From an uncultured bacterium (GTDB taxonomy: Bacteria; Cyanobacteriota; Vampirovibrionia; Gastranaerophilales; Gastranaerophilaceae): a stretch of DNA of 64,000 bases. The notes beneath the pieces were generated by a model. That model searched no databases. It was not told the origin of the DNA and saw nothing but the letters and a program-made list of their open reading frames with translations. The DNA lies in NCBI GenBank assembly GCA_949282215.1, contig CASDPF010000002.1:62001-126000 (forward strand), given 5' to 3'. A program made the translations under genes and the position numbers. Every line of letters begins with the position of its first letter. Positions within the stretch are counted from its first letter, which is position 1. Of the stretch, positions 35,505 to 37,849 are shown piece by piece.

Positions 35505-36194
35505 TTAAACAGAGACAGTTTGATACTCTAAAATTCTTGAAAAATCGGAAAAATCTGTAATAACTTCAGATACATCAGGTATAGACTCATATAAGTCAAC
35601 AGGTTCCATTGAAGCAATTGCAACAATTTTTCCGATTTTTGCATTCTTTGCAGCCTCAATCCCTGAAAGAGCATCTTCTATAACAATACATTCACTAGGA
35701 TTTAGCCCCAATTTATCAGCAGCAATCAAATATATATCCGGAGCCGGTTTTCCTTTTATTTTACCGTTATCATACACTATTTTATCTATATCAAACCACT
35801 TTTCCAAATTAAATTCTTTAATATAAAACTCAACATTATCCTTATTAGACATAGTTGCAATCGTTCTTGGAATATTATTTTCTTTCAAGTAATCCAAAAA
35901 TTCTATAGCATAAGGAGCCAACTTAGTATTTTCAGAATCCTCATGACACATTTGACGATAAACAGCTTCTTTTTCTTTACCAAGTTTTTCGACTAATTCA
36001 GGTTCTGGACGACGACCAAGTAAATAAGCTAAAATATCATCATTTGTACGCCCAAACATATACTTACGCATCTCGTCATCCGTAAATGGATATTCACGAA
36101 CCCTCTTTGAAAATTCTCTCCAAGCCTCCAAATGTTTTTCAGAATCCCAAAACAAAGTTCCGTTAAAATCAAATATGATACCTTTATACTGCAT
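35505..36194 (-). CDS. HAD-family hydrolase (beta-phosphoglucomutase/phosphatase-like)
   Basis: The 229-residue protein has motif I FDFNGTLFWDSE (nucleophile Asp), motif II TIATMSNKDN, the Lys in GKPAPDIYLIAADKLG, and motif IV CIVIEDALSGIEAAKNA. An alpha-helical cap follows motif I (residues 17-85). It is of the subclass that includes beta-phosphoglucomutase and sugar phosphatases. The Asn in place of the usual second Asp (DFNGT instead of DxDGT) favours a non-standard phosphatase rather than the mutase. It converges with the alcohol dehydrogenase gene. Confidence 0.8.
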   Translation of the reverse strand: MQYKGIIFDFNGTLFWDSEKHLEAWREFSKRVREYPFTDDEMRKYMFGRTNDDILAYLLGRRPEPELVEKLGKEKEAVYRQMCHEDSENTKLAPYAIEFLDYLKENNIPRTIATMSNKDNVEFYIKEFNLEKWFDIDKIVYDNGKIKGKPAPDIYLIAADKLGLNPSECIVIEDALSGIEAAKNAKIGKIVAIASMEPVDLYESIPDVSEVITDFSDFSRILEYQTVSV

Positions 36195-36205
36195 GATGTC
36201 CTCTA

Positions 36206-36781
36206 CTAATTACCGTTTTCAATAATTTTATTGTAATAATCCAAATAAAGTTGAGCATCTTTAGGCTTATTCAATTTTTTATACGTATAAGCTAAATTAT
36301 AATGAAAATCAGCTACTGTCGGATTATAATCAATCGCATATAAGAAATTTCTGCGTGCATCTTTTAATTTACCTAATTTTAAATACGCACACCCCATATT
36401 ATAATATGCATAAGAAAAATCAGGTTTTATCTTTAGAACTTTTTTATACTGCTCTATTGCCATATTAGGTTTATCTTGTTCCAAATAAAGATTTCCAAGG
36501 TTATACATAGCCTTATAAAATTTCGGATCATTAACAGCTGCTTGAGAAAACATAAAATCAGCATCCTCATCTCTGTTTTTGTCTTGAAGAATATTCCCCA
36601 AAAGAAGCCAATTCATCGGAGTTCGAACCTCTGACGGTATAGTTAAGAGAAGATTAAAAGCTTCTTCTATACGATTTTCCGCATATAAAAGGTTTGCCTG
36701 ATCATTTATTAATGACTCCTCAGCTCTTGCAACATTTCCGGCAAAAACAGCCAATGCTAATAAATACACAAATCTCTTCAT
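36206..36781 (-). CDS. Secreted/periplasmic TPR protein
   Basis: The 191-residue protein has a signal peptide (MKRFVYLLALAVFAGNVARA). About four tetratricopeptide repeats follow (NWLLLGNILQDKNRDEDAD, KAMYNLGNLYLEQDKPNMAIE, SYAYYNMGCAYLKLGKLKDAR, ADFHYNLAYTYKKLNKPKDAQ). TPR arrays mediate protein contacts. In this window a second, membrane-anchored TPR protein is at 38029. The gene is 11 nt after the HAD gene's start on the same strand. No specific partner can be named. Confidence 0.8.
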   Translation of the reverse strand: MKRFVYLLALAVFAGNVARAEESLINDQANLLYAENRIEEAFNLLLTIPSEVRTPMNWLLLGNILQDKNRDEDADFMFSQAAVNDPKFYKAMYNLGNLYLEQDKPNMAIEQYKKVLKIKPDFSYAYYNMGCAYLKLGKLKDARRNFLYAIDYNPTVADFHYNLAYTYKKLNKPKDAQLYLDYYNKIIENGN

Positions 36782-36832
36782 AAGAGCATTCTACACTAAA
36801 AAGAAAAATTTTTCAAAATTAATAAAATTTAT

Positions 36833-36860
36833 TTGACTTCTAAAAAAAAGAAAGCATAAT
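36833..36860 (+). promoter_or_regulatory. Promoter of candidate small RNA
   Basis: TTGACT, 16-nt spacer, CATAAT, reading into the hairpin at 36888-36925 with no ORF in between. Confidence 0.5.
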
Positions 36861-36866
36861 GTTGGT

Positions 36867-36925
36867 GATGTCTCTTTTACTGGTTAGTACCTGCTTCTAC
36901 TCCTTGGAGCAGGTATTCTTTTTTT
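36867..36925 (+). ncRNA. Candidate small regulatory RNA with anti-Shine-Dalgarno loop
   Basis: A promoter-to-terminator unit of about 60 nt lies between two divergent-to-parallel genes. The 3' hairpin has an 8-bp perfect stem (TACCTGCT with AGCAGGTA, 36888-36915) followed by TTCTTTTTTT. Its 12-nt loop TCTACTCCTTGG exposes CTCCTT, the exact complement of AAGGAG. Loops of that kind are used by sRNAs that block ribosome sites. It recalls the ACUCCU core of cyanobacterial Yfr1, but the structure differs. Confidence 0.45.
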
Positions 36926-36926
36926 C

Positions 36927-36958
36927 AAAAAAAAAGAGGTTGAAACTTTTTCAACCTC
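36927..36958 (-). terminator. Terminator of the gene at 36995
   Basis: GAGGTTGAAA and TTTCAACCTC form a 10-bp stem. On the minus strand a run of nine T follows, 37 nt after the stop codon at 36995. Confidence 0.8.
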
Positions 36959-36994
36959 CTACACACTAATTACACACTATTTAAGAAATTTATT

Positions 36995-37849
36995 TTAAGA
37001 ATTTGTTTCGGTACCGACAGAAGGAGATTTACCGAAAGCACTCATTGCCAGACCTGAAAGAGCACCGACTACAGCACCTACAGCACCTAAGAATCCAGGT
37101 TTAGTTTTCAAGACTTTTGCTATTGCCGGAATTGAAGCTAGTCCAAACATTGAAGCTGAACCCAGTATTGCACCACCCATAGTATTACCGGTAACTTTTT
37201 TAGCTGATTCCCATCTGCTGACAGGCTGCCCGTTTATCTTTGAAATATTTTCTTCTGCTGTCACTCTATCTGCAAAACCTAATGATAATGTTTGATACAA
37301 ACCTTGCAAGAATGAACTGTTACCGTACTTTCTAATATCTTCAGTTAATGAAGTATTATAAATTTGTTTATAAAAAGTATCAGCCCTTGCAATAAGTTGT
37401 TCTGTAGTTACATTTGCATCATTTGCAGAAGCAGCCTTTATGCTTGCAAGAAATTTATTCAATGCGGGAATAATCTGTTGTTGCTCATTTTGCATAATTT
37501 TTTCGTGTAAGATTTCTGCATTACGTTGAATACCTTCCATTGGAGAATTAGATAAGAAATCTACCTGACGAGCTTTCTGATTACGTCTCAATTGGCTGTC
37601 ATACATAAAATTCTGACACTGCTCCATATTTTTATAATACTGCTCATAGTTCATTCCACCCCAATAAGGCATATATGAACCGGTATAATTGCCAGAAAAC
37701 AGACTTCCATCCATAGATAACATTCCAGGGAAAGATGTACCTGAATAACCTATTAAAGAATCTAATGTCGCAGCGTTAGCATAATTATTATAAAACGGCA
37801 TCATTCCAAAGTTATACGGTGTAATTCCGCTGACATATTCGCCTGCCAT
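36995..37849 (-). CDS. Unknown protein with glycine-rich hydrophobic C-terminal segments
   Basis: I do not recognise this 284-residue protein. Residues 1-75 are rich in Tyr, Gly, Met and Asn (MAGEYVSGITPYNFGMMPFYNN). Residues 75-190 are helical and charged. Residues 205-275 hold two hydrophobic glycine/alanine segments (GGAILGSASMFGLASIPAIA, FLGAVGAVVGALSGLAMSAF) that look like glycine-zipper membrane helices. There is no signal peptide. It ends with a strong terminator and starts divergent from the TPR gene at 38029 across a region with TGTTACA repeats. A membrane-perturbing or surface role is possible; nothing specific is shown. Confidence 0.6.
   Translation of the reverse strand: MAGEYVSGITPYNFGMMPFYNNYANAATLDSLIGYSGTSFPGMLSMDGSLFSGNYTGSYMPYWGGMNYEQYYKNMEQCQNFMYDSQLRRNQKARQVDFLSNSPMEGIQRNAEILHEKIMQNEQQQIIPALNKFLASIKAASANDANVTTEQLIARADTFYKQIYNTSLTEDIRKYGNSSFLQGLYQTLSLGFADRVTAEENISKINGQPVSRWESAKKVTGNTMGGAILGSASMFGLASIPAIAKVLKTKPGFLGAVGAVVGALSGLAMSAFGKSPSVGTETNS

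Follow-up and report, generated by a model that had tools for sequence, protein, structure and literature searches.

The window analysed here is a stretch of 64,000 nucleotides from the genome of an uncultured member of the Gastranaerophilaceae. Between two genes of its minus strand, it carries a compact element on the plus strand. A –35 element, TTGACT (36833-36838), and a –10 element, CATAAT (36855-36860), are separated by a spacer of 16 nt. TTGAC is found upstream in 109 of 139 distinct rows of relatives, and columns –12 to –7 are also conserved. The promoter is followed by GATGTCTCTTTTACTG from G36867, a short link, a 12-pair hairpin, a C and seven T. An sRNA of 59 nt is predicted at 36867-36925, starting 7 nt past the –10 element, at the edge of a conserved block, and ending with the T run (36919-36925). 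The unpaired 5′ block, GATGTCTCTTTTACT (36867-36881), is the likely seed. The terminator stem-loop (36886-36917) was assigned from the fold and from covariation, with arms at 36886-36897 and 36906-36917. Its loop, UACUCCUU (36898-36905), contains the anti-Shine-Dalgarno-like motif CUCCUU (CTCCTT at 36900-36905).

The flanking genes point away from or towards the element. On one side, a gene for a TPR-repeat protein (36206-36781, minus strand) is divergent and is followed, as second gene of the divergent operon, by a HAD-family phosphatase gene (35505-36194, minus strand), the product of which is beta-phosphoglucomutase-like with a score under the curated cut-off for that name. On the other side, a convergent gene for a 284-aa protein, without Pfam or NCBIfam match (36995-37849, minus strand), has its own terminator (36934-36960, minus strand). 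Because of this arrangement, no plus-strand neighbour gene reads into the element. The 284-aa gene adjoins the sRNA in many genera and is fast-evolving, often with 30-50% identity.

A sequence-only reading had proposed at this place a promoter, a non-coding transcript of 60 nt and a terminator with a CUCCUU loop. The sequence bears out this layout: the fold of the 59-nt RNA has an energy of –17.9 kcal/mol (z = –4.05; none of 200 shuffles was as good). Simple motif scans of this region gave 23 promoters against 18.0 expected and 2 terminators against 1.6 expected. Since these counts are close to chance, the motif argument alone is insufficient and the evidence lies in conservation.

A DNA search was performed with a 106-base query in 99 genomes, the genome of the window and 98 relatives. 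By our tally, every one of the 13 genomes of the genus gave a match with E 3.6e-6 or better, as did 20 further genomes, none from outside the family. Across 30 loci fetched from this search, the 5′ 15-mer was identical in 30, and the 16-mer that includes the next G was found in 29, while the letters of the promoter spacer, the link and the stem varied. A covariance model was then built from 8 ungapped rows. Of 146 genomes searched, 46 gave one match each and no more. Every one of these belongs to the family of the window, as do 88 of the 146 by our own tally. In the genome of the window, the single copy (36867-36922) scored 87.5 bits, the next best match reaching 17.4. The hairpin, the conservation of which had been left to a covariance search by the sequence-only reading, is therefore kept, with the compensatory changes described below.

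Exact searches in 382 genomes of the class gave the same distribution. The 15-mer was present in 144 of them (reversed pattern, 5), namely in 143 of about 276 genomes of the family (own tally) against 1 of 106 others; about half of the family genomes are thus without the exact 15-mer. With CTCCTT required 8-38 nt downstream, 102 genomes were retained, all in the family, whereas the reversed control gave none. CTCCTT is therefore kept at this distance in 102 of the 143 family genomes having the block. The 15-mer match outside the family (G209) and a second match in G099 had neither promoter nor hairpin and were attributed to chance. Likewise, no promoter was seen by eye at sub-threshold model matches in other families (L210, L212, L217, L219). 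A scan of a named genome collection for the 16-mer plus CTCCTT yielded 111 stretches, filed under Gastranaerophilales, Melainabacteria, cyanobacteria or simply bacteria. Four that carried names of other groups (L076, L092, L117, L119) are probably mislabelled; the genes around L117 and L119 match those at the family loci. A phage origin was rejected, with no match in viral contigs, and no Rfam family matched the element at its cut-off.

The stem was then considered pair by pair. In the 8 ungapped rows, 96 of 96 cells are paired and 7 of the 12 pairs are changed on both sides. In an alignment of 85 loci (77 distinct rows), 94.4% of 904 cells are paired and double changes occur in 11 of the 12 pairs. 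Double-change cells numbered 213, as compared to 66.9 in shuffled and 7-43 in slid alignments, and the covariation score was 0.695, as compared to 0.239 and 0.05-0.09, respectively. The 85-locus alignment was fitted to the covariance model, and the 8 ungapped rows agree with it. Most of the 85 loci were picked for the 16-mer and CTCCTT, so that invariance at both is there by construction; less biased figures of conservation are those of the 99-genome DNA search, of the 30 fetched loci and of the 382-genome counts of the 15-mer with or without CTCCTT. Stem substitutions are compensatory while the loop usually keeps CUCCUU.

Conservation in the RNA is highest at its unpaired 5′ end, GAUGUCUCUUUUACU, with which the predicted transcript starts. 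The block lies 7 nt past the –10 element, at the position expected for a transcription start; in the comparison showing this, complete conservation inside the block is by construction. This 15-mer, overlooked in the sequence-only reading, is more conserved than the loop. In genus g41, the block is kept with a hairpin, CTTCCTTAA...TTAAGGAAG, that is without CTCCTT, and the loop motif is also absent from the copies read from g9, g12, g16, g25, g30 and g32. In g29 and g40, the loop motif is present with a promoter of a different type (TTGGAAA). The 5′ block is the core of the RNA; the loop motif is common but absent in some genera.

Some further variants were observed. In several genera (L175-L196, L201-L204, L264-L273), the promoter has shifted from the TTGAC type to the TTGGAAA type, and the CUCCUU loop is often absent there. 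In genus g10 (L025, L259, L275, L276), an additional hairpin separates the 5′ block from the terminator, and both the block and the loop motif persist. We also examined 40 genomes without an earlier match, 32 of the family and 8 others. Diverged copies were found by eye in 7 of the family genomes (L205, L206, L207, L208, L209, L211, L213), which show A instead of G as the first letter, a block of reduced length or additional sequence ahead of the terminator. The sRNA was not detected in some genera of the family, such as g6, g21, g24, g26, g33 and g36. In L216, of genus g6, a palindrome at around 1480-1512, AAAAGAGACATC...GATGTCTCTTTT, contains the seed sequence and is possibly a chance terminator.

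The majority of loci have the gene order of the window, with the HAD and TPR genes divergent, then the RNA, then the convergent 284-aa gene. At four loci (L027, L098, L106, L107), the RNA is inverted between the same genes, and the HAD, TPR and 284-aa genes are all missing from the 3 kb read at loci of g41 and g29. Since it is inverted at some loci and lies elsewhere at others, the unit of promoter, RNA and terminator moves as a whole. This also answers, in favour of an sRNA gene, the earlier concern that the hairpin might only end a read-through transcript. Protein coding from the ATG of the block (ATG TCT CTT TTA CTG ...) was rejected: frames and stops after this ATG differ among relatives, stops lie directly past the block in many of them, and third codon positions within the block are invariant in the 30 loci. 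As judged from sequence, the element thus has the features generally asked of an sRNA gene, a promoter and a Rho-independent terminator of its own around a non-coding RNA, together with a conserved single-stranded seed and a covarying structure. Overall, we have very little doubt that this is a real, lineage-specific sRNA family of one family of Gastranaerophilales. It would almost certainly represent the gene of a short regulatory RNA, kept over long evolutionary time in a family of non-photosynthetic gut relatives of the cyanobacteria.

The possible pairing of the RNA with ribosome sites was investigated on 417 ORF starts from the window and 400 kb of the same genome. The sequence-only reading had supposed that the loop could control many mRNAs through AAGGAG as the commonest ribosome site. 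AAGGAG is indeed the commonest hexamer at –17 to –4, yet it occurs in only 53 of the 417 starts, the choice of which favoured such motifs, and in 6 of 71 ORFs of the window alone. The loop, UCUACUCCUUGG, paired better with starts than with gene interiors by –1.86 kcal/mol, as compared to –0.50 (sd 0.48) for shuffled loops, none of 60 being as good. Pairing of the loop with ribosome sites is thus plausible, whereas the breadth of control once supposed is at odds with the small share of AAGGAG starts and with the absence of the motif in several genera. For the 5′ block, the difference between starts and interiors was not significant (–1.01, shuffled –0.31, sd 0.52; 6 of 60 shuffles reached it). 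Single starts stood out for this block, those of the HAD gene (–14.3 kcal/mol), of a thioredoxin gene (–14.2) and of a UPF0047 gene (–15.5).

The candidate site in the HAD mRNA covers its ribosome site (36195-36209, minus strand). Among 86 distinct HAD starts of relatives, the mean pairing energy was –10.35, and 31 starts were at –12 or below, as compared to 9 of the 417 starts of the own genome. Decoys keeping the UCUCUUUU core with shuffled flanks had a mean of –7.86, and none of 60 reached the true block. Typically, nt 1 to about 13 of the sRNA would pair with –15 to –1 of the mRNA, across the Shine-Dalgarno sequence; at three loci (L073, L087, L121), the pairing overlaps the start codon. 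No comparable excess was observed for six neighbouring genes with 4-66 starts each (TPR, 284-aa, a second TPR gene, two ABC genes and an exonuclease); a further gene with only 2 starts was left unscored. By subgroup, the HAD signal was weaker, being reached by 1, 2, 0 and 6 of 60 decoys, and loci of the g2 type (L016, L017, L101, L111) pair poorly with HAD (–2.6 to –9.8). Ungapped pair counts do not single out HAD, with at least 10 of 12 pairs in 42 of 84 starts as compared to 18 of 24 for an ABC gene. At five loci with a diverged 5′ block, HAD starts pair poorly (–2.9 to –10.0), which would fit co-evolution, though with too few loci. Taken together, these predictions leave the chances that the neighbouring HAD phosphatase mRNA is a conserved target evenly balanced.

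For thioredoxin, 11 of 13 starts within the genus were at –14 or below (best –21.1) and none of 60 decoys was as good, in a count that omits 4 of the 30 fetched loci. Elsewhere in the family, in 10 genomes that have the RNA, 9 of 60 decoys did as well. Because decoys match it outside the genus, thioredoxin is not a family-wide target and is a candidate within the genus only. UPF0047 was rejected as a target: of 9 starts within the genus, 4 reached –12 or below (G000, G002, G003, G005), and none of the 18 remaining starts did. Besides the gene itself, perfect complements of 9 nt to the block occur at 14 places in the own genome, none of which is a convincing mRNA start. Overall, the target predictions drawn from these sequences are of moderate strength. 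As a separate observation, the 9-mer AAAGAGACA, complementary to the seed core, occurs 15 times in the own genome (G000), including the gene itself, as compared to 48 times for the reversed pattern; avoidance of off-target pairing, or codon usage, is a possible cause of this scarcity.

We conclude that the element probably encodes a trans-acting base-pairing sRNA of about 59 nt, specific to the family, with a 5′ seed and an anti-Shine-Dalgarno loop that block ribosome sites. Antisense pairing at such sites is the likely mode of action of the RNA. In the proposed mechanism, RNA polymerase would start at G36867 and stop at the hairpin, so that two pairing parts would be exposed, the unpaired 5′ end and the hairpin loop ACUCCUU. 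The loop would mimic the 3′ end of the 16S rRNA with its anti-Shine-Dalgarno sequence. In selected mRNAs, the 5′ end would cover the ribosome site and continue as far as the start codon; the HAD phosphatase mRNA is the likeliest conserved target, and the loop would add contacts to Shine-Dalgarno sequences. The expected outcome is reduced translation of the targets.

Other readings of the element deserve consideration. Fifteen nearly invariant letters are long for a seed tracking changing targets, and the 5′ block has no clear genome-wide target set. Both facts would suit an RNA that binds a protein, the ribosome or RNA polymerase by this block, antisense pairing being incidental. However, the block is single-stranded and is linked to a loop that is complementary to ribosome sites, and HAD starts pair better with it than with decoys; we regard protein binding as improbable. 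Somewhat more improbable still is that the loop is the main effector, in a general anti-Shine-Dalgarno RNA competing with 16S rRNA for many mRNAs. Its pairing with translation starts argues for this, as does the retention of CTCCTT in 102 of 143 block-bearing genomes although the surrounding stem changes, but several genera keep the 5′ block without the loop motif and AAGGAG precedes only 53 of the 417 starts. Finally, there might be no functional RNA, all that is conserved being a promoter with a terminator, an operator in the DNA for the divergent TPR gene, or the place where read-through transcription stops. A hairpin that by itself is within chance for terminators and the adjacent TPR promoter would favour such an explanation, which we consider very improbable; compensatory stem changes, conservation extending beyond the start site and inversion or movement of the unit independently of the TPR gene all stand against it.

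Within the preferred reading of a base-pairing sRNA, a more specific proposal may be formulated. The RNA could be a two-headed riboregulator working without recognisable Hfq, in which an anti-Shine-Dalgarno mimic and a fixed 15-nt seed both compete with the ribosome on a small regulon (HAD, and thioredoxin in Candidatus Scatousia), as an independent, non-photosynthetic counterpart of Yfr1. In this full form, the proposal is speculative and rather unlikely.

The sRNA family is new, of an established type. To go by titles and abstract openings, none of the open-access papers retrieved dealt with sRNA genes from Gastranaerophilales, Melainabacteria or Vampirovibrionia. Gastranaerophilales are gut bacteria known mainly from metagenomes, for which this conserved RNA, with its fixed seed and neighbouring candidate target, offers an entry to post-transcriptional control.

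Several known RNAs are comparable in part. RepG of Helicobacter pylori pairs via a C/U-rich terminator loop (PMC8295292), and the class of OmrA/OmrB and RybB uses a conserved 5′ end as a seed near the Shine-Dalgarno sequence or the start codon, OmrA being dependent on Hfq (PMC12692685). The new RNA would resemble RepG in pairing by a terminator loop, and OmrA/OmrB in having a 5′ seed near Shine-Dalgarno sequences. RepG pairs with a G repeat, whereas the loop of the new RNA fits AAGGAG and is accompanied by a conserved 5′ seed; homology is not claimed. In Rfam, the element has no match to the OmrA/OmrB/RybB class, and as far as tested, the new RNA is kin to neither RepG nor OmrA/OmrB. Hfq, on which RybB also depends, was searched with Pfam PF17209 and found in none of 30 genomes of the order and in 5 of 14 control genomes, a model that a divergent cyanobacterial-type Hfq could escape. 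In view of this result, pairing of the sRNA may need no Hfq, or another chaperone. The best sub-threshold Rfam match was anti-hemB, or Burkholderia RNA 7 (RF02837), with 28 bits as compared to a cut-off of 49.5. The likeness concerns only the hairpin, with CUUCUCCUCCCUG in the loop region, and is probably convergent.

The sequence-only reading had also suggested a function related to that of cyanobacterial Yfr1. Yfr1 is described as an RNA of 54-69 nt with two stem-loops and an unpaired ACUCCUCACAC, mostly near guaB and trxA (PMC2190773), and Yfr1/Yfr10 as pairing with mRNA 5′ regions, with UCCU essential and usually one copy per genome (PMC2190773, PMC6778093). Membership of this family was rejected: the score is below the cut-off, and an unpaired ACUCCUCACAC between two stem-loops is absent, only ACUCCU being common. 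The Yfr1 model, RF01116, was matched by 61 of the 146 genomes searched in the phylum; each of these is listed outside the class of the window, and none belongs to the family of the window (f1). In the window, RF01116 gave no match at the gathering cut-off, nor at 36800-36980 up to E 10. Kinship with Yfr1 is thus not upheld, and the layouts differ. Yfr1 has a 5′ stem-loop and presents ACUCCUCACAC between its two hairpins, whereas the new RNA is without a 5′ hairpin and presents ACUCCUU in its terminator loop. Its invariant part is a different 15-mer at the 5′ end, and its neighbours are the TPR, HAD and 284-aa genes rather than guaB or trxA. The two RNAs have in common their size, a 3′ terminator, a short unpaired motif that is ultraconserved and contains ACUCCU, and usually one copy per genome. 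The new family can be set against the oxygenic cyanobacteria, in which a distinct RNA carries a similar ACUCCU core.
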